From positions 1-29,360 of IMG/VR virus record IMGVR_UViG_3300049459_000096: a DNA stretch of 29,360 nucleotides, one strand, 5' to 3'. Source of the DNA: a virus. Below are positions 759 through 23,919 of the stretch, one piece after another (positions within the stretch are counted from its first letter, which is position 1; every line of letters starts with the position of its first letter). The notes under the pieces are model-generated. The model was not told the DNA's origin. It searched no databases and worked only from the letters and a program-made list of their open reading frames with translations. A program made the position numbers and the translations under genes.

Positions 759-785
759 AAAAAAAGCCCGCACAGTGGCGGGCTT
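759..785 (-). terminator. Intrinsic terminator between tail gene and endolysin
   Basis: On the minus strand an 8-bp stem AAGCCCGC/GCGGGCTT with a 6-base loop is followed by a run of seven T (759-765). It ends 17 bases before the endolysin start. It lies inside the late operon, so the endolysin must be read through it or transcribed from its own promoter. Confidence 0.85.
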
Positions 786-801
786 GATGCTGAGTGCAAT
801 T

Positions 802-1755
802 TCAGTTGAAGATTTGCGATACACCGCCGTTGGCCAAAGCACTGGCGGCGATCCGCGCCTGGACGCGAAGCCAGTCGGCATCGGCCACGACCACTGGGTC
901 GCGCCCGCTTCGCGCCAAGTTCTCGACGTACAGACGATACCCTCGCCATTTGATCGAGTTGGTAGCGCCTGGCGCGCTAGGCACCGAGTAGGTATTGCCA
1001 GCACCGAAGCGCCCAGTGCAGCCGCTGAAGTTCTCGCTGTTATCGGCGCCCACGACACCGGTCGTTGTGCGCCGCCCCTGCGCGGTTCGCAGACTCAGGC
1101 CGACACCGCCAGCGTTGCGGAAGAACGTGAGCTGGGCCAGAAGGCCGTACTCGTTGTCGTTCACCACGATGCTGGTGGTCACCAAGGTGTTGCCGACAGT
1201 CTGGCGGATGGCCTCGATGCGGGACGAAATCGACGATTGGCCGATGGTCACCAAGTCGGGCACACCTGCCGCGGCGTTGGCGGCACCCCATGCCAGGATT
1301 GGGGCCAGCGCTGTTGCGGTGTTCCAGTTTGCCTTGGTCGGAAGTTTTAAATAGGCCGTAACCATGAACTGCTGCGATTTACCGGCGAAGGCAGCGTAGA
1401 TATCAGCGGCAACCTCGGGCGGGATGGACAGATAGTTGCCGGCCAAAGTGATCGCCGAGTAGTCAAAGCCCCCACCGGCGTAGTTTATAATCTGGCCGCC
1501 GCCAGTCAGGACCACGCTACCGTTTTTATGTTCGGCCACGTCCGCAACCATTGCGCCGTTGCCGGGGGGGGATGGCGCTGGACGTGTGGCGTATGGTCCG
1601 CCCGGGTAGCAGAACCCGAAGCCGAGGTCCGCAATAAAGCGCACGCCAGCATTCGCAGCACCAGTAATCAGCGGATCGCGAACGGCTTGGGGCAGGCTTG
1701 GATCAGTAGAGACAATCGGTGATGCGAGCACGAAAGAACCCTGTAACTCTGTCAT
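802..1755 (-). CDS. Tail-associated protein downstream of the tail fibre, unknown fold
   Basis: Encodes 317 aa. The start at 1755 has AGGAGT 7 bases upstream. It begins 14 bases after the tail-fibre gene ends, so the two are likely co-translated. The sequence is rich in Gly, Ala, Ser, Thr and Val with alternating hydrophobic residues, suggesting a beta-rich virion protein. The C-terminus (IKWRGYRLYVENLARSGR, then DADWLRVQARIAAS) ends in a helical segment. The position suggests a tip, adhesin or carbohydrate-binding part of the fibre, perhaps with a lectin-like jelly roll, but no motif proves this. There is no signal peptide or membrane segment. Confidence 0.75.
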   Translation of the reverse strand: MTELQGSFVLASPIVSTDPSLPQAVRDPLITGAANAGVRFIADLGFGFCYPGGPYATRPAPSPPGNGAMVADVAEHKNGSVVLTGGGQIINYAGGGFDYSAITLAGNYLSIPPEVAADIYAAFAGKSQQFMVTAYLKLPTKANWNTATALAPILAWGAANAAAGVPDLVTIGQSSISSRIEAIRQTVGNTLVTTSIVVNDNEYGLLAQLTFFRNAGGVGLSLRTAQGRRTTTGVVGADNSENFSGCTGRFGAGNTYSVPSAPGATNSIKWRGYRLYVENLARSGRDPVVVADADWLRVQARIAASALANGGVSQIFN

Positions 1756-1769
1756 GTGGTTACTCCTAA

Positions 1770-3743
1770 TTAAATTTCGGTGTAGAAGTTAAATAGCGCG
1801 CTCGCGATGACCCGACCCCCAGTCGGACCATCCGGGTGGAGTAGATCGGCCGCATACCAAGGTCGAGCCGCGTTGGCCGCCGCATAGTCAAACGCGAAGT
1901 TAGCTGGCGAGCCAAACACGTATTGAAGATCAACAAAGCCGATATCATTCGACACGGCATATTCTCTGACGGCCTTGGCGTAGTCGGTCATCTTCACTGT
2001 GGTCGTGGTGCGTTGGTTCTCGGCAGGGATAGCAGCCACACGGTCGGCGTAAGGCATGACCACTGACAGGTTGTTGAATACGGTCTGTACGTTGTTGGCC
2101 ACGGTAGAAGGCGAGTTTGAATCGGTCTGGTCATTGGGTCCGATCATCATCTGGTGGCAACTGCTGTTAAGCGCCAACATCTGCGTGCGCCACGGCGTGC
2201 CGACACCCACCCACTGGACCGAACGGGCGCCCGAACTACCGAGCTTGTGGATACGCACACCTGGCGCGTTGTTTCGCAAGTCAACACCGCCGACACCCAC
2301 CGCACCCGATACAACTTTGATGCGAGCGATACAGCCGGCAGCCGGCACACCAGGGAGTGCGATGTTATCGGCGCCAACCGTAGCCAGAGCAATGTTCGCA
2401 CCATAGGTCACGCCGTCATCCCAGCTCACTGCGATCACACCAGTACCGTCACCACTGTAAAAAAGCTGTGCGGTGTTGGTGTATGCGCCACCGGCAGGCG
2501 GTACGCTGAATCGCAGATAGTCGTCAGCAACGGTCGATGTGACCTTGTATAGGGCTGGCATGTTGGTAGCTGGCGAGTTGTAGGCGCAGACCCACGTCCC
2601 GATGATCTGACAGATAGGCACCAGGTCGGTACGAACACCACCGGCAATACCGACTGGCTGTGAGCCTGCCGTCCATGTGCCGGATATCGGGGCGCTGTAC
2701 CATCCGAAGCCGACCCAGCCAGCACCAGCCAAGCCGTAGACAGCCTGTAGGCGCTTGGCCAGCGTCTGAGAGTAGTAGCTGCGATCGTTAGAGTAGCTGT
2801 CTCCCAGCAAGGCCAGCACCCACTGCACGGAATCACCGCCGAGAATTCGCTCAAAGCGCATACGCGCATCACGAACCGACCAGCGATTGGCGTAGGGGCC
2901 AAGCACGTCGCCGTAAGGGGTAAGGCCGTGGGACAGTCTCGATGATAACGACGCTTGGCTGCCCGCCGACAGGGCCAGCTCAGCGAGGATTGGCGTCACA
3001 ACCGGGCCAACAGGCTCAAGCTTGCCGAGGATATAGCCATTGGCGTCGACGAACATAATCTGAGCGCTTGGGTCGAGCGACTCGTAGAAATCGCTCTTGA
3101 CCGCCTCAGCCTGCAGCTCTGAGGTTGACGCTGCTACGGCAGCAACAATAAGGCTTAGCGATGCTGGGGCCATGCGCGCAAGGACCTTGTTGTTGGGGTC
3201 CATCAGCCAAACCTCACCATCCGTGGCCATGTCCAGCGTCTCGAAAACATCACTTTTGACCATGCTGTTCTCAATCACGGGGATACGACTATCTGGAAAT
3301 TCGGCAAGCATGCGGCCGCCAGGGTCGAGCAGCATCGCTGGGGGCGTGGCGGGGTCAAGGCTTTCATAAAGCTGGGGGACCATAATCGGCTGAGAGCCAG
3401 CGATCCATTCGACGTAGCTATTCAGTCCCTCTACACGCTCCGCGCTCGAATAGCGCCCAACCTCGACAGCAGTACCGGCGTCGTTCCGGTATCGAATTTC
3501 ATAGTCCGCGCCTGTCCCTGGAACAGTGAAGAAGCGGTTGCTCGTGCCAGTTCCACTGGTCTCCAATAAACCTTGCGCAATTGTCGGATACGCATGCAGG
3601 CTCGACAAAAACTCAGCGTAGATTTTCTTGAGCGTCGGCTTGGTGACACCGTTGATGACGACGTAATCGCCATCGGAAAGAAACAATTGGTTGGCGCTCA
3701 AGACAAGCTGCTCAAACAACTGAAGATCGGAAGCTCCGCTCAT
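1770..3743 (-). CDS. Tail fibre with SGNH/GDSL hydrolase domain
   Basis: Encodes 657 aa. The N-terminal part (to about 120) is probably virion-attaching. Residues 124-241 hold three imperfect repeats of a YESLDP...LLDPGGRMLAE type. Residues about 305-657 are an SGNH hydrolase: block I LLGDSYS with nucleophile Ser316, block III IGPNDQ with Asn537, and block V DLLHP with Asp633 and His636. Between blocks I and III (about 400-490) is a beta-rich insert. SGNH domains on phage fibres commonly remove acyl groups from capsule or O-antigen sugars, so the inferred role is receptor recognition and deacetylation. The start has GAGGG 8 bases upstream. An intrinsic terminator sits just before it. The substrate cannot be told from sequence. 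Confidence 0.88.
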   Translation of the reverse strand: MSGASDLQLFEQLVLSANQLFLSDGDYVVINGVTKPTLKKIYAEFLSSLHAYPTIAQGLLETSGTGTSNRFFTVPGTGADYEIRYRNDAGTAVEVGRYSSAERVEGLNSYVEWIAGSQPIMVPQLYESLDPATPPAMLLDPGGRMLAEFPDSRIPVIENSMVKSDVFETLDMATDGEVWLMDPNNKVLARMAPASLSLIVAAVAASTSELQAEAVKSDFYESLDPSAQIMFVDANGYILGKLEPVGPVVTPILAELALSAGSQASLSSRLSHGLTPYGDVLGPYANRWSVRDARMRFERILGGDSVQWVLALLGDSYSNDRSYYSQTLAKRLQAVYGLAGAGWVGFGWYSAPISGTWTAGSQPVGIAGGVRTDLVPICQIIGTWVCAYNSPATNMPALYKVTSTVADDYLRFSVPPAGGAYTNTAQLFYSGDGTGVIAVSWDDGVTYGANIALATVGADNIALPGVPAAGCIARIKVVSGAVGVGGVDLRNNAPGVRIHKLGSSGARSVQWVGVGTPWRTQMLALNSSCHQMMIGPNDQTDSNSPSTVANNVQTVFNNLSVVMPYADRVAAIPAENQRTTTTVKMTDYAKAVREYAVSNDIGFVDLQYVFGSPANFAFDYAAANAARPWYAADLLHPDGPTGGRVIASALFNFYTEI

Positions 3744-3763
3744 TGCGCGCCCTCTATAAATGC

Positions 3764-3783
3764 AAAAACCCGCACAGGGCGGG
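3764..3783 (-). terminator. Intrinsic terminator upstream of the tail fibre
   Basis: On the minus strand CCCGC, a 5-base loop, GCGGG and then TTTTT (3764-3768). It lies between the stop of the 158-aa tail gene (3810) and the fibre start (3743), with its T-run 20 bases before the ATG. The stem sequence resembles those at 759 and 11707. Confidence 0.75.
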
Positions 3784-3809
3784 CTCAGAAGTAGGTGGGT
3801 AAAGTGGGG

Positions 3810-4286
3810 TTACGCAGCGCCTGGCCAGTTCTTCGTGTACCAGGCCTCAAGCTGGGCTCGCAGCTCGGCGTTCATGACCGTGAGGTCCAAGCCAGCGAGC
3901 AAACTGAGAAATTCGTTCTCATCAACAATTGGAATTTCGAACAACTCAGCCGGTACCGAAAAACGCCAGTGATCGAAGCCGACCAGTTCCGGCCCGCTAT
4001 AGATGTCGGTGAAGCGAACTTTCGTTGGTGTAAGCCCCATGGGGCTCTTGATCGGACACCGGAACCAGTCGATGTAGTTGACCCCCCATTTGAACCAGCC
4101 TTGGAATAGCCGGGCCTCCTCCGAATCCAGAATCCAGGACAGGGTGACCGCAGTGGGAAAGCTTCGGAACCTGATGCGCTGAATCGACCTTCCGCTCACA
4201 AATTGTGATCGGGCAATCGGGCTGACCGGCCTGAAGCCGTAACCTTCACGCAAGGGCAGCGGCAAGTTGTCAGGGTATGTGAGCAT
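3810..4286 (-). CDS. Tail protein of unknown function, after J
   Basis: Encodes 158 aa. It resembles a conserved protein often placed just after the J-like tip gene in siphophages of Pseudomonas and relatives (remembered resemblance). The N-terminus reads LPLPLREGYGFRPVSP, followed by an Arg-rich beta segment, an aromatic block EARLFQGWFKWGVNYIDWF and a final helix. There is no catalytic motif, signal peptide or membrane segment. Being between J and the fibre, it may connect the fibre to the tip. It is followed by an intrinsic terminator. Confidence 0.75.
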   Translation of the reverse strand: MLTYPDNLPLPLREGYGFRPVSPIARSQFVSGRSIQRIRFRSFPTAVTLSWILDSEEARLFQGWFKWGVNYIDWFRCPIKSPMGLTPTKVRFTDIYSGPELVGFDHWRFSVPAELFEIPIVDENEFLSLLAGLDLTVMNAELRAQLEAWYTKNWPGAA

Positions 4287-4315
4287 AAGCTCGTCGTCCT
4301 TTTGTCAGAGGCCCA

Positions 4316-7300
4316 TCAAGCGGGTGCCGCGCTGCCGTCATAGGTGTAAACGCGGGCGTCGTAGGGCATACCCTTCAGTGCCACGTTGCCGTTGGATGGA
4401 GATGAGCTCGTAGTCAGGATCGGATAAGCCCACTTACTCGCCGGCCCGATCAGCAGCTGGGGCAGCTCAAGGGTCATGCTGGTGTCGGGGGTAAAGTCGA
4501 GATCAGTGATCTGCAGATGGTTCTCGTCGATCGCGATCACTGGATAGGGTCCAGAAAGCGAGCCATCGAGCCGGCTGATGCCGACCCTGTACGCTTCGGG
4601 CGCCGACCAGTCGATCGGCTCGGATGACTCCAGCAAGAAGCCACCGGCAACCGCCTGCACGCTTAGCAATAGAGCGCTTTGGCAGAGGCCTGGGGTGTCG
4701 CTGGCGACGGCACAGAAACTCAGGTATCCCGAGTTCATGCCGGCCAACTCGGTTTCCCATGTGTAGGTGTCCTGCCGAAACAGCTGATGCCCGCGGCGAC
4801 GCATACCGAACTGGTACGCACGGTTGCGATCACCGACCCCGGGCAGTTTGATTTTCTCGACCTTGAGTCCAGCGTCACCCGGCCAGCGACACGGCACCGT
4901 CTCCCATGCCCACGTCCGGTTCGAGTAATACTCAACGTCGACCCCGTCGAAGTCGTTGATCGATGGCAGGGGACCGTCGATCGTTAGGGGCTTGGTCATG
5001 TTCTGCGGTGAGTAGGTCTGCGTCTTCGGCCCGTAGGTGATATCGAATGCCGCGCGGGGCTCGTCACGCACCAGGCTGACCAAACCGTTTTTGATGGTCA
5101 GTTCGGCATAGCCGCACGCTAGCGCGTCATTGATTCGGTCCTTGGCGGTACTGGTGTCGTCGATGACCTCGTCGTAATACTGGCCGGCGGCCTCAAAGAC
5201 CGTGTGCAAGCGATCCCACTCCGGAAGATCGATATCGGCATCGGTGTAACCGAGTGACTTCAGCACGTTCAGGCACCAAGGGACGATACCTCGGGTGGGT
5301 TGCGGTGCAGTCCAGCCGCCACCGGTATAGACCGGCAGCATCCGGGTGCCTATCAGATTGGCCTGGCTCTCCGACTGAGACGACAGGCGATCGCCGCCAC
5401 GGATCTGAAGCGCCATCACTGTCATGCCCCGGTAACTGGTCGGGCGGATCTGCCGAAGGCTGCGAAAGCCATACCAGCTGATGTCGTCCTGCTTTTCCGA
5501 GTCGATCCGCCCGGGCTGGCTGACGAAGCGCTTCTTGATCCGTGCCTCTGGATTGCCCATCGGATAAGGGAGGTCTATCCGATAGGTGAATCCTTGGGCA
5601 TCGCGACTTCCCCCAACGTGCTCCTTTTCGATTACGGTCCATGGGCCAGCGATATCAGCGTCTCGATATTCAAAGGTATGGAACGAGCGAACCTCGTATA
5701 TCTGACCTTCTCGGCCGATGCCGCACAGTCCATTGGCATGGAACACGGTCCACTCCAACGCTGTGATCAGTTCGCCCTTCGGCGCGCAGCTGAACGGGCC
5801 GCGATAGCCTCCATCCAGGTTCGACGGATCCAGGGTGATCAAGCCGTTGACGGTTTCAGTCAGGACGAACCCCGGCCAGCCCGAGTCGACCGCGCCGACC
5901 GAGGTCAAGCGCTCGACGGTCATCAGCGTCGAGCTGAAGGCGGTGATGCGGTAGCGCAGGCCGCGCGGGGCGATGGTGGCCAAGCCTGAGCCGAGCGCCA
6001 GGCCGACTACCGGTTGCCCGCCGTCGTAGTTCAGGGTCATTTCCGCTGGCTGTTCAGGCGTTCCAGCCGACGCCGCGGTGCCGATCGTATTGACCGGACT
6101 GGAGCCGAGCACGTCGGAACCGCCGGACGAAACCAGGGCAAAACCGTTGTTGGTACCAGTCTGGGTCAGCAGAACCTTGCCCGCCGAAGCGCTGGCAATG
6201 AACGGGGCGCTACCTTTAGCGGTGTTGATTGCCGCGACCAAGCCGGCAAGGTCGGTCGTGGCTGTACTAAGGGCGACCGAGTACGGGGTCGCTCCGAGCG
6301 ACACGGTAAAGGACAGCGGCGTGACGTTGTAGTCGTAGCGAGCCGGAATACTGGAGCCCAGAACCGTCGATGGCGTGCCCGCCGTTGGCGGAACAGCCGG
6401 CGCATACGGGGTGAACGAGTTGACCACGTAGAAACCAGCGTTTGCCCCTCGGACTTCGATCAACATTCCCGAAAATGGGTTCAGCATGGTCAGCGGGCCA
6501 CGCACGATGTCACGCCCAGCGCCGCCATCGACGACGGTGTACTCGTAGGGTGACTGCACGTGAATGATCAGGCCGCTTTCCCAGTCAGCCGGGTAGGCAC
6601 CGGCGCCAGCTGGTATGCCGATGTTGGTGCCGTTGAACTGGTAGGCCGAGGCCGTCGCGGTCTGGCTCAATGCAGTGGATACGGTCATTTCAAGACCGGC
6701 CGAACCACTGGAGCTGGCTCCGACCTCGTCCACGTTGTACCAGAGCATGGAGGCAGTGTTGCCAGCCACCCACGCGCCCGGCGGGTAGATGTTGCAGATG
6801 GCGTCAGACCCGAGCGAGATGATCGGCGTTTCGCCGATCTTGATATCACTGGTCGAGACCTGCACGTCGCCGGCCGACACATACAACAGCATTTCGGTCC
6901 ACTGCTCGCGAGGCCCAGCAAACCAGGTGCGCGGCTCAGCCAGATAGGCCGGGAACAGTTTTTGCCGGCCAGCCAGGTTACGCACAGGATCACCCAGCTT
7001 GACCTTGTTGCCCTTGGCGCTCGCCTCGTCAATCGGGTCGCCCTGCGTGGTGTTTCCAGTCGATGGCATGCCCGGCATTTTTGGCATCAGCATTTTGCCG
7101 ACAGCCTTCACGCCCTTGAACAGCAAGGCGGTGATGGTGAACGGGTCGGTGCCCTTCGGCTCGCGCCAAATCTGGACGCGATCGGACGGCTTGAATTTGA
7201 CCTTGTGCCATAGCGTCGGGCAAATCAGCTCGTCGTTGATCGCCACGCTGATCGGCTGCACCGGTGCACGCTGGTAAGCCGACGTCTGCTGCTGAACCCA

Positions 7301-7384: not shown

Positions 7385-7764
7385 CGGTAATACACCACTC
7401 GTTGATAGCACGACTCAAAGTCACGCACTGGGCGAATGCGGGGGCCGCCTGGGTTGGTGTCGAGTACCTTCAGTTGGCCGTCCAGGTGCACGACCACGCC
7501 TACGTGCTCCAGCAGATCACCGACGAAAGCGGCCGCAATGGCGCCAAGCTCTGGCTCGCACTCTTGCATGCCGGTCTTTAGCTCCCGGTATGCCAGGGTG
7601 TTTTCGCGCAGCTTGGTCCGCCCCACGCCACCCAGTGATGGCAATAAAGGCAGGCCGAAGACTTCATGCCTCACGGCAATGACGAGCCCATAGCAGTCGA
7701 AGGCCAACGGTCCGCGCGCGCCATCCTTGTAGGGGGCAGACAGGTAGTTGCTGATTGGGGTCAT
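7381..7764 (-). CDS. NlpC/P60-like cysteine peptidase of the tail tip
   Basis: Encodes 127 aa from the ATG at 7764, in an ATGA overlap with the preceding DUF1833 gene. The longer open frame to 8121 is antisense-like noise over that gene. It has the NlpC/P60 nucleophile motif FDCYGLV (Cys24) and the histidine motif EHVGVVV (His87); DTNPGG (102-107) follows where the third polar residue would be expected. It corresponds to lambda gpK, a tail-tip assembly factor that may also locally cut the peptide cross-links of peptidoglycan on infection. The neighbours (DUF1833 upstream, J downstream) support this. Confidence 0.85.
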   Translation of the reverse strand: MTPISNYLSAPYKDGARGPLAFDCYGLVIAVRHEVFGLPLLPSLGGVGRTKLRENTLAYRELKTGMQECEPELGAIAAAFVGDLLEHVGVVVHLDGQLKVLDTNPGGPRIRPVRDFESCYQRVVYYR

Positions 7765-8243: not shown

Positions 8244-8258
8244 AGGGTTTTTCCAAAA

Positions 8259-11200
8259 TCAGATTCCTTGGGATTGCCAGCCATACTTTTGCTGGCCAGC
8301 CTGGTGCACATCACCCTCGGACTGGATGTCTGAGATCCAGATATCGATAACGTCCTGCCGATCTAGCTGTCGGCGACTGACCTTGCCGGCACGGCTTGCG
8401 TCTTCAATCAAGTTGATGGTCATGGGTCGAGCGACAGGCTGGCCATCGGCAGTTTCGCTTTGGCCCCCCGCCGATCCTGAACTGCCCACCGTCGAGTTCT
8501 CACCGCCAATCATCGCGGTCTTGCCGTTGCTCAATGCTTCCAGAGTTCCCACACCAATACGCGCGGTTGCCTCTGCATCGAAGACGTACTCTCCACGGTG
8601 TACAGGTCCGGCAATCTCATCGCGGCGCCCATTGCCGGTATAGCCACCCTCCATGAAACCAGCGCCCGACATGGCAGTGATACCCACGGCAGCTGCAAGG
8701 GGGCCGGTAATGGAAAGTGCCGTCGCCATGGCCGCTGGGGCGAGGACAGGACCAACGAGCGGTATTGCGGCAGTGGACGCAAATGCAGCCAGACCGGCCT
8801 GCAGTGAAGTCGCCTGAGCGTTTGCCCCCATCATCCCTGCCGCACTGACTTGGGTAGTCTTGCCCACCAGCATCTGCACGCCTTGATAGATCAACCATTG
8901 GGCCGCCATGTCAGCCAGCGCATTGATCATCGAACTCGCGAAGTTGCCAATCATGTTCCCAAAAGCATCTCCGGCATCTTCTGCGCCGGTGACCACGTCC
9001 GAAAAGAATGTGCCCAGTTCGCTCCTGGCACTGCCCAGAGCACCCGATGTGAAGTCGGCGGCAATCTGAAAAGAGTTCTGTGCTGCATCGGCATAATTTG
9101 CCCAGGCTTCGTGCACACCATTGATCCAGTTCGATTGGTACTCATCGATCTGGGCGTAGTAGTTTTGCTGAGCAGCCAGGCGTTTTGCCAACTCGTCCTG
9201 CAGAACGGTTGTCTCGCTGGCATAAAGTTCAGGACTGATCTGACCGGTGTTGCGTTGCTCATTGAGACTCGCCAGATCCTCGGCATACTTTTGCTGCAGA
9301 GCGAGGTCAGCTCGCATGCGATCGCGGGCTTTGTCGCCCATACCGATCCCAGCCAACTCTTGATCGAATCCGTCCTGAGTAGTTTGCGTACCGGTGGTCT
9401 GCACATTCTTGAACGCCGTCAGCTTCAAGTCGTCTTCGTTGGCCTTCTTGATCTTGTTCAGCGCGTCCAGCTCTGCGGCCATGCCTATCAAGCGTTTTTT
9501 CTGGGCTTCACTCAACTTGCCGAGCTTCCCCTCCTGGAGCTCGAACGACAGTTTTTGGACCTCGGTCGCGTCCTTCTGCTTGTCGCCGGTGGTATTGATC
9601 AGTTCGATCTGGCGCTTGTAACCTTCTTCGGTGGACTCGAAGGCTTTGAGCTGCTGCTTGGCGGCCGACTCTGCTTCGCTGGTATGCTTTTTCGAAGCCT
9701 TGGCGGCGGCATCGTCGGCAGCCTTTTGCGAATCCTTGGCAGCTGCGGCCGAGCGAATGGCGACGATCATCCCTTCGGTGAGGTCGGTGTTTTCGGTAAT
9801 GAATCTGTTCGCAGCTTCGAGGGCTGTTTTGTCCTGAGCTGCGCCGAGTTGTTTTTGCAGCTGCTCAAGGTACTTCTGACCAACCTGATCGGCGGCGGCG
9901 ATCGCAGCGTTGTTTTTGCCGCGAGCGGCGGTATTTGCATCAGTCTCGCCTGTCAGTTCTGCCAGCGTCTGCCGCTGCTTATCGAGGATTACAGTCAGGT
10001 CTGATACTTTAATTTGCCCAGTCTCAATCGACTGAGCCATCTCCTCCGTAACACCTGGAATCAGCCTGATCTGGTCCGCTACCGTCTTCCAATCTACCGC
10101 TTGCCCGTTTGAAGAATCGGCAACAGCTTTGTTGACGATATCCATCGCCGACTGAAACTCCGCTGGCAGCGGGACAATGCCAGCCATAAACCCTGACGCG
10201 CCTGCCAGTCCAGCATTCGTCAGGCTTGCCTGGAACTCAAATGCAATTGAGGCTGCAGCGCCGGCAAGATCGCTTTCTGTGTCCGAGATTGAGGCGCGCA
10301 ACTCGCGCAACGTGACCGACTGAGTGGCGCGATTGAGTTTATTGAATCGCTCGGCCAACTTGTCGAGCGGATCATTCAGATCCCCCAGCTTCTCCTCAAG
10401 AACGCTGGTGTTATCTCGCAGAGTGAGAAAAGCAGTGGCGGCCCCAATGGCCAGAGCGGCGACCCCGATAGGACCGCCCAACATCCCGAGTAAACCAACA
10501 CCGGCACGACTGACCCCAACCTGAGCGGCAGCCACAGCATTTGTGGCCCTGGCTTCAACCATACGAGCTTCAGCAAGCTGCAGCGACATCTGGGTCTGCA
10601 CTGCCGTGCCACGCGCGGCTACGGCCTCTTTCTGCGCTAGGAAGACAGTGGTCTGCGCTTTCTGCTGCTCAGCCTGAGCGGCCAGCAACACAGCTGTTGC
10701 CTGTGCCTTGCGAGCCGCTACGTCCGTGTAAGCGGAATAAGCAGACCTTGCAGCAGAGCTTGCGGCACTGGCCCCATAGCGTGCGAGGGCGGCTACGGCT
10801 GTGACAATTGCAACATCTGCAAGGGCTTCAAAGTTGTCACCGAGAGCCCCGATACCATTGGCCAGCACTCCAGTGAAATCGGTGGTTTCGTTCAGACGAC
10901 CGACGTAGACGCCGAACGCGTTTGACAGGTTCTGCAAAGCATCACGGACCGCGACGCTCATGCTATCCGCAAGAACGCCGTTGGCCTGGGCGGACGCCTG
11001 CAAGCCTTCAGTCAGTACGTCAAGGCTTAGCTTGCCTTGGGCCCCAAGACTGCGAATTTCCTCGGCGGTGTTGCCGGTGGATTGGGCGATGGTGTCGACC
11101 ACGGTCGGCATCGCTGCGAGGATGGACTGCCATCCGTCAGCCTCAACCTTCCCAGTTTGAAGCGCCTTCGAATAAGCATCGATTGCCGAACTCGCCTTAT

Positions 11201-11690
11201 CAGCAGAAGCAGAGTTTGTAACCAGTAAAAAGCTGAAACTGTCCATCACATCCAGCGCCTGGCTGGTGTTGTAGCCCATCGACTTCAGACTGTCCGAGGT
11301 CCGAATGTAAAGCTCTTGGGCCTCACTTAACGGGCGATAGGTTCGCTTCGCCGTTTCCAGCAAGCGCTGCTGCACCAGGTCGTATTCGCCGACGCTGCCG
11401 GTAGCCATGCCAATGCGATCGGACATCTGCCCGTAGGAGTCAGCAGCCTCAATGATCTTGCTGATGGACGCCGCGCCAATTGCTCCCGCAAGGGCCGTCT
11501 TGATCAGGCCGGCAGCGCTCTGCGCGCTCTCTCCAGCACGGTCAAAGGCTTCGTCGACACGCCCCAAGCTCTTGTCGATTTTCCCCGACGCCTGCGCGAC
11601 GCTGGAATCTGCACGCGCCATTTCCTGACGGAGCTGTGCAGTGGTCGCCTCGATGCGGACCAGCATCCCCTGTACGTCGGTATCGGCCAT
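8259..11690 (-). CDS. Tail tape measure protein
   Basis: Encodes 1143 aa, the longest gene in the window. It fixes tail length and occupies the tail lumen. The N-terminal half (about 60-230) shows the tape-measure N-terminal domain: GQMSDRIGMATGS, LYIRTSDSLKSMGY and a SAIDAYSKALQTG stretch. Residues about 290-430 are Ala-rich with hydrophobic stretches that may cross the inner membrane during DNA entry. Residues about 600-870 are Lys/Glu/Gln-rich coiled coil. The C-terminus (about 900-1090) resembles the lambda gpH C-terminal domain, with FTSGALGSARSELGTFFSDV and the conserved GFMEGGYTGNGRRDE, HRGEYVF. GGAGA precedes the start at 11690. Tail length would be about 1143 x 0.15 nm, near 170 nm, by the usual rule. 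Confidence 0.93.
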   Translation of the reverse strand: MADTDVQGMLVRIEATTAQLRQEMARADSSVAQASGKIDKSLGRVDEAFDRAGESAQSAAGLIKTALAGAIGAASISKIIEAADSYGQMSDRIGMATGSVGEYDLVQQRLLETAKRTYRPLSEAQELYIRTSDSLKSMGYNTSQALDVMDSFSFLLVTNSASADKASSAIDAYSKALQTGKVEADGWQSILAAMPTVVDTIAQSTGNTAEEIRSLGAQGKLSLDVLTEGLQASAQANGVLADSMSVAVRDALQNLSNAFGVYVGRLNETTDFTGVLANGIGALGDNFEALADVAIVTAVAALARYGASAASSAARSAYSAYTDVAARKAQATAVLLAAQAEQQKAQTTVFLAQKEAVAARGTAVQTQMSLQLAEARMVEARATNAVAAAQVGVSRAGVGLLGMLGGPIGVAALAIGAATAFLTLRDNTSVLEEKLGDLNDPLDKLAERFNKLNRATQSVTLRELRASISDTESDLAGAAASIAFEFQASLTNAGLAGASGFMAGIVPLPAEFQSAMDIVNKAVADSSNGQAVDWKTVADQIRLIPGVTEEMAQSIETGQIKVSDLTVILDKQRQTLAELTGETDANTAARGKNNAAIAAADQVGQKYLEQLQKQLGAAQDKTALEAANRFITENTDLTEGMIVAIRSAAAAKDSQKAADDAAAKASKKHTSEAESAAKQQLKAFESTEEGYKRQIELINTTGDKQKDATEVQKLSFELQEGKLGKLSEAQKKRLIGMAAELDALNKIKKANEDDLKLTAFKNVQTTGTQTTQDGFDQELAGIGMGDKARDRMRADLALQQKYAEDLASLNEQRNTGQISPELYASETTVLQDELAKRLAAQQNYYAQIDEYQSNWINGVHEAWANYADAAQNSFQIAADFTSGALGSARSELGTFFSDVVTGAEDAGDAFGNMIGNFASSMINALADMAAQWLIYQGVQMLVGKTTQVSAAGMMGANAQATSLQAGLAAFASTAAIPLVGPVLAPAAMATALSITGPLAAAVGITAMSGAGFMEGGYTGNGRRDEIAGPVHRGEYVFDAEATARIGVGTLEALSNGKTAMIGGENSTVGSSGSAGGQSETADGQPVARPMTINLIEDASRAGKVSRRQLDRQDVIDIWISDIQSEGDVHQAGQQKYGWQSQGI

Positions 11691-11706
11691 GCTTTTCTCC
11701 AGGCAT

Positions 11707-11727
11707 AAAAAAACCCGCCGAAGCGGG
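11707..11727 (-). terminator. Intrinsic terminator after lipoprotein, before tape measure
   Basis: On the minus strand CCCGC-TTCG-GCGGG, a UUCG-type tetraloop hairpin, is followed by seven T (11707-11713). It begins 17 bases after the lipoprotein stop and ends 16 bases before the tape measure ATG. Confidence 0.85.
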
Positions 11728-11744
11728 CGATACAGTTGAAAAAA

Positions 11745-12080
11745 CTAATGACAGAGCTTGGACCAGGCTTGCTCAAAGTCGCTCAAGCTTAAGCGACCAT
11801 CCTTCTCGAAAACGACCATCTCTTTGGTCGCTGCGATGAACCTCCTGAAACCGACATATCCCCCAAAGGAATTCTTCGAGTTCACCTCACCGCAAAATCC
11901 TCGCTGATTACGAAACTCAGCGCTGTCTGGATCTTTCAAAACTCCGGATACAAACTCCCTAGCCACACGCTGATATCGTATTTCAGTCATTTCGGCCTTA
12001 TGCCTTGCCTTATCCGCCTCTGACTGGCCGCAAGCTGCCAACAACAAAAAAACCGTAAGCATCACTATCAGCTTTTGCAT
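11745..12080 (-). CDS. Lipoprotein of moron type between tail chaperone and tape measure
   Basis: Encodes 111 aa with a lipoprotein signal: a short basic start, a hydrophobic stretch and lipobox LAAC (Cys17; Gly at +2, which favours the outer membrane). The mature part has a charged helix, then DPDSAEFRN, CGEVNSKN and FGGYVGFRRFI, a pattern I recall from small periplasmic proteins of Proteobacteria. GAGGGAT precedes the start. It is followed at once by a strong terminator. Its position between G/T and tape measure matches that of the HK97 gp15 superinfection-exclusion gene, so a role in blocking other phages or altering the lysogen surface is an inference, not shown by sequence. Confidence 0.82.
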   Translation of the reverse strand: MQKLIVMLTVFLLLAACGQSEADKARHKAEMTEIRYQRVAREFVSGVLKDPDSAEFRNQRGFCGEVNSKNSFGGYVGFRRFIAATKEMVVFEKDGRLSLSDFEQAWSKLCH

Positions 12081-12122
12081 TCGTCGATCCCTCGCCTTTA
12101 AGCGGTGAAGACTATCAAAACG

Positions 12123-12700
12123 CTACGCTGACTGCCTCCCCGCGAGCGCCTGTCGCAGCTTGGCCGCTACAGTCGACGGCTTAGGCTTTTCCTTCTGTAC
12201 GCCAGATTTACTGCCGAAGGGATTGGTCATTTGGGTCCATTCGATTCGGGCATCAATGGCCATGAACAGTTCCGGTAGCGGCGTGCGCCAGGCTAGGTCG
12301 GGCGGCCACCCCAACCAGCCCGTGGCGATCGAGTAGAGCCGATCTACGTAGCTGCCGTCCTCGACAGCATTTACTCCTCCACTGCCGTCGGCTTTCCCGA
12401 CTTTGGCCCCTTCGGATTGTAAAGTGCCACCAGGTAGGCGTTTAGTTGTGCGGACACACCAAGGACACCTGCCTGCCAAACTTTTTCAGGAACCGCATCC
12501 GCGTCCTTGCCTTTAAGCCCGGCACCAGCAACAACGATGGCGGAACAGCCCTCAACGCTCAGTGCGTTGATGGTCTGCGATGCGCCCCGCAAACCACCGA
12601 AACGGGCTTCGATTGCACGCACGGCCGCCAGTGTGGGTACCAGTTCATAATCCTCACCGTCGAGGGTAATAGTGATGGTGCCAAACAGAGTTTTGCTCAT
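12123..12700 (-). CDS. Tail assembly chaperone G-T, made by -1 frameshift
   Basis: Predicted fusion of about 192 aa: 103 codons of G to the slippery GGGAAAG (12392-12398), then the -1 frame from 12392 to the stop at 12123. The T part adds 89 aa, including DRLYSIATGWLGWPPDLAW and a basic C-terminus, with no good start codon or ribosome site of its own. The frame relation was checked: codon starts in G and T differ by exactly -1. In lambda, gpG-T recruits tail tube protein to the tape measure, and a G:GT ratio matters. The shift efficiency cannot be known from sequence. Confidence 0.82.
12371..12700 (-). CDS. Tail assembly chaperone, G-like (unshifted product)
   Basis: Encodes 109 aa. It resembles GTA-gp11/TAC_11-type tail chaperones: ITLDGEDYELVPTLAAVRAIEARFGGL, then a helical part. 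It lies between the tail tube and tape measure genes, the place of lambda gpG. AAGGA is 9 bases before the ATG. The gene ends after a GGGAAAG slippery site so that a longer G-T protein can be made. It binds the tape measure during tail assembly and is not expected in the virion. Confidence 0.85.
   Translation of the reverse strand: MSKTLFGTITITLDGEDYELVPTLAAVRAIEARFGGLRGASQTINALSVEGCSAIVVAGAGLKGKDADAVPEKVWQAGVLGVSAQLNAYLVALYNPKGPKSGKPTAVEE
12392..12398 (-). other. Programmed -1 frameshift site GGGAAAG
   Basis: The heptamer reads G GGA AAG in the G frame, 19 bases before the TAA of G (12371-12373). It is the same heptamer used by lambda gpG/gpT. Confidence 0.85.
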
Positions 12701-12719
12701 GCTTCAATTCCTTGAGAGA

Positions 12720-12735
12720 CAGGGCCGGAGCCCTG
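12720..12735 (-). other. Stem-loop after the tail tube gene
   Basis: A 6-bp inverted repeat CAGGGC/GCCCTG with a 4-base loop lies just after the tail tube stop (12741) and before the G chaperone. There is no T-run, so it is not a clear terminator. It may protect the abundant upstream message. Confidence 0.45.
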
Positions 12736-12740
12736 CCAGA

Positions 12741-13241
12741 TTAAGGCGCGACTGCGGCCGGTAGAATTTCGAGAATCTCCGAGTTGATGCCAATGGTGAT
12801 GTTGCGGCGGACTACGTTATCGGCAGCGCCCGCAGCAACGGTGTTGTTCATCACCTTGCCGCGCATGTAGAACGTGGTCGGGGTAATCGACGGCGTTGCA
12901 TCAGGGTCGCCATCGTTCAGGGTGATTTTGATGTTGTAATCGCCTGTACTGCGGTCCTTGTGTGCAACCTTGACCGCAGCTTGACCGGCGTCGCCGTTGT
13001 CCAAGCCCACAGTCAAGGTCAGGTCACCAGCGTCTGCCAGTCCCTTGAACTTACGGACGCGGCCATCGCTAAGGGAAGAGAACGTCACCGAACTGAACGT
13101 ATCGCCGAATTCGCCCAGGTCTTCGATTTCACCCACTTCGACATAGGTGTCAGCCTTAAATGCCGCTTCGGTATCGGCGCCGGACTTCGTACCGAGCGAG
13201 AATCGGCAGCCGGCGGCTGTGTTGAGGTTGTCATCGGCCAT
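12741..13241 (-). CDS. Major tail tube protein
   Basis: Encodes 166 aa from the ATG at 13241, which has GGAGGA 6 bases upstream. The frame is open to 13451, but that part overlaps the next gene antisense and has no such site. It resembles lambda gpV/HK97-type tube proteins: an N-terminal Asn/Thr-rich arm, then EVGEIEDLGEFGDTFSSV, SDGRVRKFKGLADAGDLTLTV and a beta-rich core. It polymerises into the tail tube. It lies between the tail terminator and the chaperones, as expected. Confidence 0.87.
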   Translation of the reverse strand: MADDNLNTAAGCRFSLGTKSGADTEAAFKADTYVEVGEIEDLGEFGDTFSSVTFSSLSDGRVRKFKGLADAGDLTLTVGLDNGDAGQAAVKVAHKDRSTGDYNIKITLNDGDPDATPSITPTTFYMRGKVMNNTVAAGAADNVVRRNITIGINSEILEILPAAVAP

Positions 13242-13296
13242 GGGGGTTCCTCCAAAGGCACATTGGATAAAGCCGCGGGGCGGCCGGTGTTGAGAT

Positions 13297-13683
13297 TTAG
13301 TGGGTGGTGATAACGCGGACCGTAATCGATCCCTGATAGGTGACGCCGTCAGCATCGCGCTGGGCATCGGCTTGCTCAACTCGGACAGATACGGCCCTGC
13401 CCACTGCCAGCGACAGCCGCCGCTCATCCAAAGCAGCAACGATCTCGCCATTGATCCGCTTCACTTCGGCTTGGCCGTGGGCATCAGACCAGACCGAAAG
13501 GTAAATCAGGCGCTGTTCGCGCTTTCGCCCAGCAATAGGGCTAGTGTTCGCCGAGATCTCACGATCGAACGAGATGTACGGCATCGGCGTGTCCAGCGGC
13601 GCGCCGTCGTACACGGGGCAGGATACTTCGGCCTCCAGACGTGCAAACAACGCCTCCTGCAATGCAACAGATGGATCAGCCAT
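13297..13683 (-). CDS. Tail terminator protein, DUF3168 family
   Basis: Encodes 128 aa. It resembles DUF3168/gpU-like tail terminators, which cap the tail tube and form the tail side of the neck. Typical features are the N-terminal LQEALFARLEAE, VYDGAPLDTPMPYISFD, the LIYLSVWSDAHGQAEVKRI strand-helix and the final VTYQGSITVRVIT. It overlaps the end of the gp10-like gene by 8 bases. Confidence 0.85.
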   Translation of the reverse strand: MADPSVALQEALFARLEAEVSCPVYDGAPLDTPMPYISFDREISANTSPIAGRKREQRLIYLSVWSDAHGQAEVKRINGEIVAALDERRLSLAVGRAVSVRVEQADAQRDADGVTYQGSITVRVITTH

Positions 13684-14254
13684 CGGTGGCGCCCTCGCTC
13701 GCTTTGCGCAATGTTCTGGCTACCGCCGCCCGGATATTGGCCAGCACAAACTCGCGATTCACCGCCATCGCAGGGCGAAGCCATGGATGGGCTGGACGGG
13801 CTGGGATGTCGGGATAGTTGCCGTAGAAGGTCGTGCCATTGCTCTTGTTCTTCGTAGGTCGTTGCTGAAGGGCATTTCGGCGACCCTTGAGCTGTGACTT
13901 ATCCCGGTTGTTCGTGTGCTCGCCCCCTACGGCATTGGCATCGGCACGTCGATAGATCGCCCCGCTATAACCTTTGGTACCGTACTCGAGAAACCGCAGA
14001 TAGAAGAAACGCTGCATATCCTTCTTGCCACGGATGCCGATCTGCGCATCCAAGCCGCTTTTCGACACGAAGGTCTTGAGAGCGGACGCCGCAGCTCCGG
14101 TGTCCTTAGGAATCAATTGGCGCATGGTCGACAGGATCTTGTCAGCAGACTCCTGCATCACCGGTACCAATTCGTTATCCATCGTTGAGTGGATGTTGCG
14201 CAGCGTGCGACGCAGCTTGAAGTCGCCAGACATGCGCGAGCGGCGGGCAGCCAT
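13676..14254 (-). CDS. HK97 gp10-like tail completion protein
   Basis: Encodes 192 aa. It resembles the HK97-gp10/lambda gpZ-type family: helical start, IPKDTGAAASALK (about 49-61), FFYLRFLEYGTKGYSG and the C-terminal PARPAHPWLRPAM. Residues about 100-145 (basic, Asn/Lys/Arg-rich) form an insertion between the two conserved blocks. It acts in joining heads and tails. It starts three bases after the small gene upstream ends. Confidence 0.85.
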   Translation of the reverse strand: MAARRSRMSGDFKLRRTLRNIHSTMDNELVPVMQESADKILSTMRQLIPKDTGAAASALKTFVSKSGLDAQIGIRGKKDMQRFFYLRFLEYGTKGYSGAIYRRADANAVGGEHTNNRDKSQLKGRRNALQQRPTKNKSNGTTFYGNYPDIPARPAHPWLRPAMAVNREFVLANIRAAVARTLRKASEGATDG

Positions 14255-14257
14255 GGA

Positions 14258-14428
14258 TCACTCCTTGACCGGATCGGCCTTTTTAACGGGAGGCTGCGGC
14301 TCGTCAGCTGCGCGCACCAGGCCTCGGCTGATGAGGTCAGCGCCGATCTTCGCGTCAACGGTGAAGTCTTCACCTTTGGCTTTTTCGCCAACGGCACCGG
14401 ACAGATTGCCCAGGGCAATTACTTTCAT
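14258..14428 (-). CDS. Small 56-aa protein in the head-tail connector cluster
   Basis: A short gene with GAGGTG 5 bases before the ATG at 14428. It fills the space between the stopper (ends 14438) and gp10-like (starts 14254) genes. The protein begins MKVIALGNLSGAVGEKAKG, then DFTVDAKIGADLISRGLVRAA, and ends Pro/Lys-rich. The pattern resembles short phage proteins that carry a tvd-Aa-Li-G module; the C-terminal third of the 111-aa protein at 15113 has a similar ending. I do not know its function. Confidence 0.75.
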   Translation of the reverse strand: MKVIALGNLSGAVGEKAKGEDFTVDAKIGADLISRGLVRAADEPQPPVKKADPVKE

Positions 14429-14437
14429 GTCACACCT

Positions 14438-14770
14438 CTATGGGTTGGGAACGTTTGAACACAGAAGCCGGAGCATGGCGCGCTCATTGTCGATGAGAGC
14501 GGCCTCAATCAAATAGGTAGTAGTGATGCCGCTCGCAATATGAACCAATCGATTTCCGGCCATAGCATCAACGCGAGGTCGTATGCGAATCTCGGCCGAA
14601 ACCAGCGCTTTTAGTTGCTCAGCTACAGGCGCGATACGGCCGGTAGGCAGAGTGATTTCCGCCCAAAGTTTTCCGACCTCAGACCAGGTGACATCGAAGC
14701 CACCAGAACTATTCTTAACGCGTATGGGTTTGTACATCGTGCAACGGTGACGCAAGGATCCGGCTCTCAC
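14438..14770 (-). CDS. Head closure / stopper protein (gpFII/SPP1 gp16-like)
   Basis: Encodes 110 aa. It starts with GTG at 14770, sharing one base with the TAG stop of the upstream gene. It fits the head-tail joining family: MRAGSLRHRCTMYKP, GGFDVTWSEVGKLWAEI, then a beta-rich core ending ERAMLRLLCSNVP. It plugs the portal-connector channel and docks the tail. Confidence 0.82.
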   Translation of the reverse strand: MRAGSLRHRCTMYKPIRVKNSSGGFDVTWSEVGKLWAEITLPTGRIAPVAEQLKALVSAEIRIRPRVDAMAGNRLVHIASGITTTYLIEAALIDNERAMLRLLCSNVPNP

Positions 14771-15111
14771 TACACCCCCCAGCCAACTCGATATGGCGTT
14801 AACAGAGATCGAGATCCCATCGGAAGTTCGGACGAAATCGTACCGACGACGACATCTTCTCGATTAGCGTAAAGATTGCCGACAATCAACAAACAAGCGG
14901 CGCGAATCGAGGGGTTGATCAGAATGGGTTTGGAACCTGCAGAGCCGTCTACCACTGCCGACGCCAATGAGTCCTCGTCAACATAAAAGCGCCGATTTAG
15001 AAACTGCACGGCGCTGTCTTCGGCGGCAGCCAATAACAATTCGACATGCTGCCGATCATCGTCTTCAGCTCGCAGATGGTGCATTGCCTCATCGATGGGG
15101 ATGACGTTCAT
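14770..15111 (-). CDS. Head-tail connector, HK97 gp6-like adaptor
   Basis: Encodes 113 aa. It matches the gp6-like family in outline: IPIDEAMHHLRAEDDDRQHVELLLAAAEDSAVQFLNR, then a helix INPSIRAACLLIVGNLYANRE and a C-terminal PYRVGWGV. In HK97 this forms a ring below the portal. It follows the 111-aa gene by one base. Confidence 0.85.
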   Translation of the reverse strand: MNVIPIDEAMHHLRAEDDDRQHVELLLAAAEDSAVQFLNRRFYVDEDSLASAVVDGSAGSKPILINPSIRAACLLIVGNLYANREDVVVGTISSELPMGSRSLLTPYRVGWGV

Positions 15112-15112
15112 A

Positions 15113-15448
15113 TCAGGCCTTTGGATCGGTGTCGGTCGCGAGGCCTGCAGCGATCAGTGAAGTCGCGTCATGCTTCGGCGAAAGATAACCGGCACCGCCC
15201 CGGCGGCGAATTTCTTTGCCGTCCAGATAGCTGCGCAGCGGGTAAATCATGATCGCGTTGTCCGATTCTTGTACGCTTGCCGCGCTGACGGCATGCGCAT
15301 CGGCCGCGGCGGCATCCATCGCAGCAGAGTCGCCGGGAAAAATCTGCCGAACATCGTCAGCAGCCTTTACGTCAGCGGGAGACGCGGTCACAGACGTATC
15401 AGTGGTATTGGCATTTTCCGCAAGCGAGCTTGAAGTGGTACGCGCCAT
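15113..15448 (-). CDS. 111-aa protein between capsid and connector, unknown
   Basis: GGAGA is 6 bases before the ATG at 15448. The first two-thirds are rich in Ala, Ser, Thr and Asp and probably disordered or helical. The last third (IYPLRSYLDGKEIRRRGGAGYLSPKHDATSLIAAGLA) looks folded. Placed just after the major capsid, it might be a decoration or minor head protein, but no motif shows this. Confidence 0.7.
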   Translation of the reverse strand: MARTTSSSLAENANTTDTSVTASPADVKAADDVRQIFPGDSAAMDAAAADAHAVSAASVQESDNAIMIYPLRSYLDGKEIRRRGGAGYLSPKHDATSLIAAGLATDTDPKA

Positions 15449-15472
15449 ATCGATATCTCCAAAATCAGCGAG

Positions 15473-15488
15473 GCCGCCCGCAGGCGGC
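15473..15488 (-). other. Stem-loop after the major capsid gene
   Basis: GCCGCC, loop of 4, GGCGGC, lying 18 bases after the capsid stop and without a T-run. It may stabilise the capsid message or weakly limit transcription. Confidence 0.45.
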
Positions 15489-15505
15489 GCTCTGTCTCAT
15501 AGGGG

Positions 15506-16699
15506 TCAGGCTTCGGTCAGTGGGCCGGTGACGAACGCTTCCGGACGATATACCGCGAAAGCTAGGCGCTCTTCGGCGCGGATCGAAACCATGTTTTTCT
15601 CGAAGTCGTCGGCGTTCTCAGTGGAAATCAGTACCTCGATCCCCATGCGATCGTAGATCTGCGCGGCCAGGCTGAAGGCGCCAACCAGGAACTGGTCCTG
15701 AACGATGGCCTGGGTCTCGACTACAGGCAGGTTCCACAGGCGCGGCGTGGTGCCGTCCTGCGGCTTGCCGATGATGTAGCGACCTTCGCCATCCTTCAGC
15801 AATTCGATGGCAGCCCAGTCGATTGGATTGAGAACAATGCCGGTGGATGGAAACTCGGCCAGCATGGCTTGCAGCAGCGCCAGGCGAATACGGTCGATAC
15901 GTTGTTCGGCCTCGACCACGATGCCAGCGGGAGCCGCATAGGCTTGAGCCTGAGGAATGATGCCCTTCAGGTTGTTGCCGGTACCGTTGCCATAGAGCAG
16001 CTGAGCTTCCTCTGCCAGCAGCAAGCCATAGCGAGCGCGCGCGTCGATATAGCTTTGCAGTGCAGCGGCATCATCGAGGATTTGACGGCTTCCTTTGAAC
16101 AGGTGCGCGATGGTGCGCACGTTTGCGTTTTCAAGCGCAAATGTTAGTTCGCTGTACGGCTTAGATAGACCTTCGCCGACGATCGCGGCGTTGTTGGTAA
16201 ACCCTGTTTCACGAACGTATTCGACCGAGCTGCTGCCAGTCGTGCCTGGGGCAACCAAGTCGCGGATGGTAAGGCGACGCTGCGGCGCGAGAATCACACC
16301 CACGCGCTCAGGCTGGACCAGCGCCCCGCCCGAAGTCGGCACAGAAGTGATGGCGGCGCGAGGCACTTCAACGCGGCGGGAACCGCGGAACGAACTGGTC
16401 ACGCCTTCCTCGGCCATCTTGGTCGCAACCAGGTCACCAGCGGATTGCTGCACGCCGGGTTCATGTTCCTTTCCAGCATTGACCAGCTTCTGCTCCGCTT
16501 CCTGCATGCGGGCCTGCAGCTCGCCCTGCTTCATCAGCAGTTCATCCACCTTGCCACGGGTTTCAGCCTGCATTTCACCGGAGGCTTTGATTTCCTTCTC
16601 GGTGCGTTCGGCATAAGTTTTGATCTGGTCGCCGACGGCTTTTAGGTCGGCCTGGGTTTGCTTCTGAGAAGCTTCAATAGCGGAAAGATCTACAGGCAT
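15506..16699 (-). CDS. Major capsid protein, HK97 fold
   Basis: Encodes 397 aa. The first about 90 residues are Gln/Glu/Lys/Ala-rich coiled coil, the internal scaffold (delta) domain. From about 100 on it is HK97-type capsid: GGALVQPERVGVILAPQRRLTIRDLV, SSVEYVRETGFTNNAA, VGEGLSKPYSELTF, RQILDDAAALQSYIDARARYGL, YGNGTGNNLKGI and a C-terminal DNFEKN-like region. The protease upstream probably removes the scaffold near 90-110. AAAGGA is 7 bases before the ATG, which comes directly after an intrinsic terminator. Confidence 0.93.
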   Translation of the reverse strand: MPVDLSAIEASQKQTQADLKAVGDQIKTYAERTEKEIKASGEMQAETRGKVDELLMKQGELQARMQEAEQKLVNAGKEHEPGVQQSAGDLVATKMAEEGVTSSFRGSRRVEVPRAAITSVPTSGGALVQPERVGVILAPQRRLTIRDLVAPGTTGSSSVEYVRETGFTNNAAIVGEGLSKPYSELTFALENANVRTIAHLFKGSRQILDDAAALQSYIDARARYGLLLAEEAQLLYGNGTGNNLKGIIPQAQAYAAPAGIVVEAEQRIDRIRLALLQAMLAEFPSTGIVLNPIDWAAIELLKDGEGRYIIGKPQDGTTPRLWNLPVVETQAIVQDQFLVGAFSLAAQIYDRMGIEVLISTENADDFEKNMVSIRAEERLAFAVYRPEAFVTGPLTEA

Positions 16700-16720
16700 G
16701 GTTTTGTCCTTTCAGAAATG

Positions 16721-16743
16721 AAAAAACCGCCACACGGGCGGTT
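16721..16743 (-). terminator. Intrinsic terminator between protease and major capsid
   Basis: On the minus strand a 7-bp stem AACCGCC/GGCGGTT with a 5-base loop is followed by six T (16721-16726). It lies 25 bases after the protease stop and 21 bases before the capsid start. Confidence 0.82.
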
Positions 16744-23379: not shown

Positions 23380-23407
23380 AAAAAGCCCCGGCAAATGCCA
23401 GGGCTTT
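23380..23407 (-). terminator. Intrinsic terminator between lipoprotein and holin
   Basis: On the minus strand an 11-pair stem with one C-A mismatch (AAAGCCCtGGC, loop ATTT, GCCgGGGCTTT) ends in a T-run (23380-23384). It lies 16 bases after the lipoprotein stop. Confidence 0.82.
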
Positions 23408-23875: not shown

Positions 23876-23919
23876 CAGATGTCATCTCTCATAACGCGCA
23901 AGATCGACATGATGGGGTT

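Follow-up and report, generated by a model that had tools for sequence, protein, structure and literature searches.

The subject of this analysis is a series of hairpins placed between the late genes of a virus. The window, i.e., the whole stretch analysed, is 29,360 nt long and was taken from the virus record IMGVR_UViG_3300049459_000096 of IMG/VR (positions 1 to 29,360). Its close relatives are mostly prophages of Pseudomonas genomes. The late genes are all encoded on the minus strand. In the direction of this strand, the O and P replication genes, a tyrosine recombinase, phrog_5085, phrog_3412, a small lipoprotein, and the holin and spanins are placed first. Terminase, portal, protease, HK97-type major capsid, connectors, major tail and tail chaperone genes follow, and the order ends with a lipoprotein, tape measure, tail tip proteins, tail fibre and endolysin. 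Six intrinsic terminators were found on this strand, and four of them directly abut the ribosome-binding site (RBS) of a late gene (Table 1).

Terminators in the window

Terminators were defined by a stem energy of <= -10 kcal/mol and a T-score of >= 4. In the whole window, exactly six were found on the late strand, and zero on the plus strand. In 200 dinucleotide-preserving shuffles, 0.105 terminators were found on average and never more than 2. All six lie between genes, and these intergenic gaps together account for 4.3% of the 24.7-kb late region. Each shows a GC-rich hairpin and an immediate U-run, i.e., the sequence signature of an intrinsic (Rho-independent) terminator.

The original prediction had placed a hairpin and T-run before the endolysin, tail fibre, tape measure and major capsid genes, and all four were located on the minus strand at 16-21 bases from the ATG. 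It had also described like stems of CCCGC type in three of them. This was confirmed as a GCCCGC-type stem in three of the four RBS-abutting hairpins, and the capsid stem is different (ACCGCC/GGCGGT). Its count of six terminators was reproduced, but one of them, at 23876-23852, sits in the leader before the first late gene rather than inside the operon.

The 16-21-base spacer from T-run to start codon contains a Shine-Dalgarno sequence at all four genes. Such a spacer is too short for a promoter, so the gene downstream of each hairpin can be expressed solely via read-through. By consensus scan, only two promoter-like sites were found on the minus strand of the window, i.e., 2170-2143 and 23949-23920. 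The arrangement is thus the one annotated in phages HK97 and N15, a terminator-like hairpin between co-directional late genes with no promoter before the next gene. No match was found in an Rfam search of the window, which indicates that it holds no known riboswitch or leader RNA.

Table 1. Features of the late region in the window (all on the minus strand).
Feature	Position	Strand	Remark
Endolysin (cell wall hydrolase, Hydrolase_2)	317..742	-	ATG 742; terminator in front
Intrinsic terminator AAGCCCGCCACTGTGCGGGCTT + T-run	764..785	-	last T 16 bases before endolysin ATG 742
Tail fibre protein	1770..3743	-	ATG 3743; terminator in front
Intrinsic terminator GAGCCCGCCCTGTGCGGGTTT + T	3766..3786	-	last T 20 bases before tail fibre ATG 3743
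Tape measure protein	8259..11690	-	ATG 11690; terminator in front
Intrinsic terminator GCCCGCTTCGGCGGGT + T-run	11713..11728	-	last T 16 bases before tape measure ATG 11690
Small lipoprotein-like accessory gene	11745..12080	-	variable slot, tail chaperone to tape measure
Hairpin GGCAGGGCTCCGGCCCTGTC without T-run	12718..12737	-	between major tail and tail chaperone genes
Hairpin GGCCGCCCCGCGGCT + short T-run	13271..13285	-	before major tail gene
Hairpin GCCGCCTGCGGGCGGC without T-run	15473..15488	-	between major capsid gene and next gene
Major capsid protein (HK97 type)	15506..16699	-	ATG 16699; terminator in front
Intrinsic terminator AACCGCCCGTGTGGCGGTT + T-run	16725..16743	-	last T 21 bases before major capsid ATG 16699
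Holin	22965..23291	-	ATG 23291
Strong intrinsic terminator	23382..23407	-	after small lipoprotein gene; ~90 bases before holin ATG 23291
Leader terminator (tR'-like) GAAGCCCAGTTAATCGCTGGGCTTT + T	23852..23876	-	~37 bases past inferred late transcription start
Candidate late promoter TTGACC-18-TAAATT	23920..23949	-	-35 contains TGA stop of phrog_3412
phrog_3412 protein, 228 aa (amino acids), candidate Q/AlpA-type late antiterminator	23946..24632	-	last gene before late genes

In a GC-rich genome, hairpins of this kind could be chance products or artefacts of prediction. A simple consensus scan is indeed non-selective, stays near the shuffled expectation in the first half of the window (14 against 12.8 expected in the first 15 kb), and shows an excess only when energy and T-run are required. 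The single-strand folding z-scores of these short elements are also modest, i.e., -1.0 to -4.2, and the case therefore rests on the combination of hairpin, T-run, placement and conservation. On the other side, six terminators stand against 0.1 expected, their placement is conserved, and the stems show compensatory changes. Simple chance was ruled out by the shuffle excess and the conservation, and an artefact in any form is extremely improbable.

Around the terminator before the holin gene, a non-coding piece appears to be conserved. For the lipoprotein-holin gap (23298-23402), matches of 88-91% identity were found in Pseudomonas phages VW-6S and SC_8_H2H8_2017, in stretches that carry no annotation there, and little else of the 10.9-kb query matches these phages.

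Conservation in related phages

By homology to the capsid, tape measure, endolysin, tail fibre and phrog_3412 proteins, 427 loci were fetched. A terminator was counted when it ended within 60 bases of the start codon, and only distinct upstream sequences were scored. The tape measure gene was preceded by a terminator in 87 of 102 relatives, the endolysin gene in 65 of 76, and the tail fibre gene in 10 of 17. Before the holin gene, it was found in 25/72, at 33-39 bases from the start. The capsid gene showed one in 27/120 relatives. Most relatives above ~75% capsid identity carry it, and from 76% upwards it is present in almost all, i.e., it is near-universal in the window's own clade only. At about 25 other junctions almost no terminators were found, with a weaker one before the major tail gene (10/76).

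Among all strong terminators on the coding strand of the fetched loci, 460/818 were followed by an RBS and an open reading frame (ORF), the distance from the stem being mostly 18-23 bases. RBS and ORF stood behind just 5/124 on the opposite strand. This RBS-abutting placement is dominated by the five gene groups, and it is also found before other tail and lysis genes.

For the stems before the tape measure gene, 22 different sequences were found, and 23 of 25 stem-and-loop combinations are fully complementary. In an alignment of 16 rows, all seven pairs were changed on both sides, 93.8% of cells pair, and the covariation score was reached by no shuffle. These rows were selected for folding, and the independent evidence is therefore the folding frequency of the upstream sequences, i.e., 86% against 4% in shuffles. 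The original prediction had proposed a comparison with relatives and regarded a lack of hairpin conservation as decisive against it. The relatives show a position that is kept while its sequence changes.

Between the T-run and the start codon, a CCTGGAG motif was observed before non-homologous genes (loci L161-L347). It occurs in 23 of 86 linkers of tape-measure genes, in 26 of 42 of endolysin genes and in 8 of 14 of tail-fibre genes. The motif is probably a local Shine-Dalgarno variant.

The junction from tail chaperone to tape measure gene is also a slot for accessory genes. An insert was found in 73/93 scorable relatives, in 20 protein clusters, and many of them are lipoproteins or signal-peptide proteins. 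The hot spot corresponds to 11691-12122 (minus strand) of the window and was followed in loci L161-L240, and its inserts are possible lysogenic conversion genes. By consensus scan only, no sigma-70 consensus site was found in the window between the tail chaperone and the lipoprotein gene.

These inserts offer another explanation of the terminators, namely that they are borders of inserted accessory genes (morons), and that the insert's own terminator stays behind as the 5' border of the next essential gene. The downstream edge of the insert carried a terminator in 70/73 cases at the tape measure junction. The window itself has one lipoprotein gene before the tape measure gene and another between leader and holin. 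In phage HK97, the annotated moron gp15 precedes the tape measure gene, with a putative terminator between them. However, 14/20 insert-free relatives retain the terminator before the tape measure gene, and the protease-capsid junction of the window has no insert. The moron pattern, i.e., a variable gene that is absent from relatives and has a terminator behind it, was observed at the tape measure junction only. Inserted morons also leave the selective retention of T-runs and stems unexplained. It is likely that morons were the source of some terminators, but they do not account for their persistence and are no obvious source of the capsid one. As a full explanation, moron borders are rather unlikely.

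Other junctions carry hairpins of a different kind. Of 111 distinct relatives, 95% have a strong hairpin behind the capsid gene, whereas it was seen in 9% of the shuffles, and the mean energy was -15.4 kcal/mol in the relatives and -3.6 kcal/mol in the shuffles. The 8 bases after this hairpin have a mean of 2.4 T, i.e., by sequence it is no terminator. For the tail chaperone gene, 54 distinct relatives were scored, and 87% of them have a hairpin in front of it (1.9 T in 8), compared with 19% of the shuffles. The hairpin before the major tail gene was found in 70% of 30 distinct relatives, with 4.2 T in 8. The mean T count in the 8 bases after the hairpin was 5.5-6.3 for the tape measure, endolysin and tail fibre genes. 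The T-rich tails at these genes against the T-less sister hairpins show that the T-run is conserved separately and is no by-product of the hairpin.

The T-less hairpins bear on a further explanation, in which all these hairpins are RNA borders. After read-through, the hairpins would shield the upstream message at its 3' end, and cleavage in the U-run would give the downstream message a clean 5' end and an open RBS. The T-less hairpins follow the two most abundant products, i.e., behind capsid in 95% of 111 and behind major tail in 81% of 63 relatives, and the terminator hairpins lie directly 5' of the Shine-Dalgarno sequence. It is likely that a hairpin has a non-termination role somewhere in the late operon. 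A pure RNA border, however, needs no T-run, yet the T-run is conserved before the tape measure, endolysin and tail fibre genes. For the four RBS-abutting terminators, RNA borders are a doubtful explanation.

phrog_3412 and the late promoter

The gene of phrog_3412 is the last one before the late genes, and the candidate late promoter overlaps its end. TTGAC spans the phrog_3412 stop codon in 76/76 window-type and 19/19 F10-type distinct relatives, the latter being picked for possessing a leader terminator. The F10-type phrog_3412 relatives have ~45-60% identity to the window protein. Within 420 bases 3' of phrog_3412, a terminator was present in 83/87 relatives, nearly always at 65-97 bases past the stop. 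In the F10-type relatives with a leader terminator, the distance was mostly 67-69 bases. The region downstream of the TTGAC site is conserved, and no pause element or protein binding element could be assigned in it with confidence. The order of candidate antiterminator gene, candidate late promoter and leader terminator is the architecture of Q/AlpA-type control.

No sequence similarity of phrog_3412 to known Q or AlpA proteins was detected in Pfam, NCBIfam, function-named PHROG families and PDB sequences, and the family has no named function in the libraries searched. In phage records, its members are mostly annotated as hypothetical protein, and the PseuP_222 record names an antitermination regulator. 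The known Q types and AlpA are likewise without mutual sequence similarity (PMC9371919). Sequence similarity is therefore no defining feature of this mechanism.

The structure of a 187-aa phrog_3412 relative was predicted by AlphaFold2, with an alignment from the loci found with window queries, and reached a predicted local distance difference test (pLDDT) score of 80. In the Foldseek search, the best PDB match was chain G of 7xyb, i.e., the AlpA-loaded complex, with probability 1.00, template modeling (TM) scores of 0.56/0.62, an E value of 8.6e-3 and a root-mean-square deviation of 6.4. The second-best match had a probability of 0.14. Antiterminators of this kind combine an N-terminal ring with a C-terminal helix-turn-helix, and with this E value and deviation the assignment of phrog_3412 to their fold is tentative. 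An earlier prediction from close relatives only was poor (pLDDT 49) and was not used.

AlpA is a demonstrated antiterminator of Pseudomonas aeruginosa (PMC7969949, PMC9371919). It binds a promoter element and enables the polymerase to pass an intrinsic terminator, which begins 54 bases downstream of the transcription start. AlpA and phage 21 Q have a common fold but no sequence similarity, and predicted terminators are located inside the target operons of AlpA (PMC7969949, PMC9371919). The window resembles this system in its candidate promoter, in an intrinsic terminator within ~54 bases, in a helical candidate antiterminator of similar predicted fold, and in terminators inside the target operon. 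Two differences are that no sequence similarity was detected and that the window's system would serve the late genes of a phage. In the lambda Q/pR'/tR' system, likewise, the last gene ahead of the only late promoter and its leader terminator encodes the antiterminator, but phrog_3412 has no sequence match to known Q families.

The AlpA-like predicted fold and the architecture of promoter and leader terminator make it most likely that these phages use phrog_3412 as their Q protein. On the same two grounds, phrog_3412 may act by modifying RNA polymerase.

A small CxxCxGxG zinc-finger-like protein is encoded upstream of phrog_3412 (24636-24941, minus strand) and gave a weak DnaJ-type zinc-finger match (E 0.016). 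Its apparent positional counterpart in phage MD8 (L433:39657-39953) is annotated as 'antitermination protein Q'. As the Q candidate of the window, this gene was rejected because it does not border the promoter and has only the weak DnaJ-type match. The MD8 label possibly marks the wrong gene or a partner.

Comparison with known phages and the proposed role

Terminators at the borders of late-operon genes are known as a kind from phage records. In HK97 (AF069529), a 'putative terminator' is annotated before the protease, gp6, major tail, tail chaperone, tape measure, I and J genes. In N15 (AF064539), such elements flank the major head gene on both sides, follow the major tail gene and precede the tail tip gene. 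The records of D3 and phi80 annotate a putative late-operon terminator singly. In lambda, terminators lie 16 bases before E and 21 before J, and also before the side fibre gene. The tape measure junction is thus common with HK97 and D3, the capsid junction with lambda, N15 and phi80, the tail tip or side fibre junction with lambda, HK97 and PseuP_222, and the endolysin junction with PseuP_222. Compared with HK97 and N15, the window has T-tailed hairpins before capsid, tape measure, tail fibre and endolysin, whereas those behind capsid and major tail have no T-run, and its stems are mostly of the GCCCGC type.

According to a 2020 paper, the roles of terminators inside late operons are not known. 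Salmonella phage L also has predicted terminators within a late operon thought to be served by a single promoter (PMC8022706). It has one, at the end of the procapsid module, whereas the window has at least five internal ones, four of them RBS-abutting. To our knowledge, the conservation count, the distinction of T-tailed and T-less borders, the contrast with activator-controlled phages, and the AlpA-like fold of phrog_3412 are new, although the original HK97/HK022 and N15 genome papers may discuss a role.

At least one RBS-abutting terminator was found in 10/10 phages of Q-type or presumed Q-type control, i.e., the window, lambda, HK97, HK022, N15, phi80, D3, F10, MD8 and PseuP_222. None was found in Mu, P2, B3 and D3112, where Mu and P2 are activator-controlled as annotated, and B3 and D3112 were assigned by kinship with Mu. 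YuA has one, placed in a region of mapped sigma-54-type promoters. Among the loci, window-type capsid relatives have 0.66-0.91 RBS-abutting terminators per 10 kb (72-89% of loci). The D3112/Mu-type loci have 0.04 per 10 kb (7% of loci), and P2-type loci have 0 (0%). The D3112 group shares the Pseudomonas host with the window type.

With a probability of about two in three, we consider that the six hairpins are genuine terminators, that the late operon is antiterminated by phrog_3412, and that the terminators serve as firebreaks where the antiterminator is absent. The late genes would form one operon, driven from one promoter where the phrog_3412 gene ends. In lytic growth, the phrog_3412 protein would load onto RNA polymerase at this promoter, and the modified polymerase would ignore the leader terminator and the five terminators downstream. 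In the prophage, without phrog_3412 protein, stray transcripts or those from moron promoters would stop at the next segment border, i.e., in front of the holin, capsid, tape-measure, tail-fibre and endolysin genes. The terminators would be firebreaks, or logic gates open to the modified polymerase only. We infer that termination occurs in vivo, that phrog_3412 overrides it, and that insulation is the selected trait.

The original prediction had offered strong antitermination, 5' message elements or regulation of expression level. Of these, antitermination gained support from the conserved late promoter and leader terminator directly behind phrog_3412, from the match of the predicted phrog_3412 fold to the AlpA antiterminator, and from the scarcity of RBS-abutting terminators in activator-controlled phages. 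A role of the four terminators as 5' message elements or in the tuning of levels is possible.

Several observations weigh against the firebreak interpretation. The capsid terminators are absent from more distant capsid relatives, hence they are not essential. The T-less hairpins at the sister junctions show that some hairpins do another job. The AlpA match was obtained with a predicted structure, at an E value of 8.6e-3 and with no detectable sequence similarity. The contrast with Mu and P2 is confounded with phage lineage, and the P2-type loci are near-identical and represent few lineages.

Tuning of levels can also be formulated as attenuation, in which each terminator is passed by only part of the polymerases and so determines how much of the downstream proteins is made relative to the upstream ones. 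A phage requires less tape measure, tail fibre and endolysin protein than major tail and capsid protein, and this lower need would fit attenuation. But one of the four terminators precedes capsid, the most abundant protein, and all genes after it. This placement argues against simple down-tuning or partial termination as the main role. Moreover, an antiterminated polymerase would escape attenuation. The authors of the phage L study name partial termination, together with the blocking of stray transcription, among possible roles, both untested (PMC8022706). As the main role, attenuation is improbable.

In a broader form of the firebreak interpretation, phrog_3412 would represent an unnamed type of late antiterminator that has an AlpA-like fold and occurs widely in Pseudomonas phages, and terminator-segmented operons would be a prophage lock on lysis and virion genes. 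The segments of such a lock would be bounded by the RBS-abutting terminators and by the T-less hairpins behind the capsid and major tail genes, and their expression would require modified polymerase. This generalization is tentative and somewhat short of even odds. The combination of terminators, candidate antiterminator and promoter has a big meaning for further study, as a long-annotated curiosity becomes a testable system. It also suggests a possible function for the phrog_3412 family, which comprises many phage proteins of unknown role.

A 426-aa tyrosine recombinase (Phage_integrase domain) is encoded at 24944-26224 on the minus strand. It lies between the replication genes and phrog_3412, which is an odd location for an integrase.

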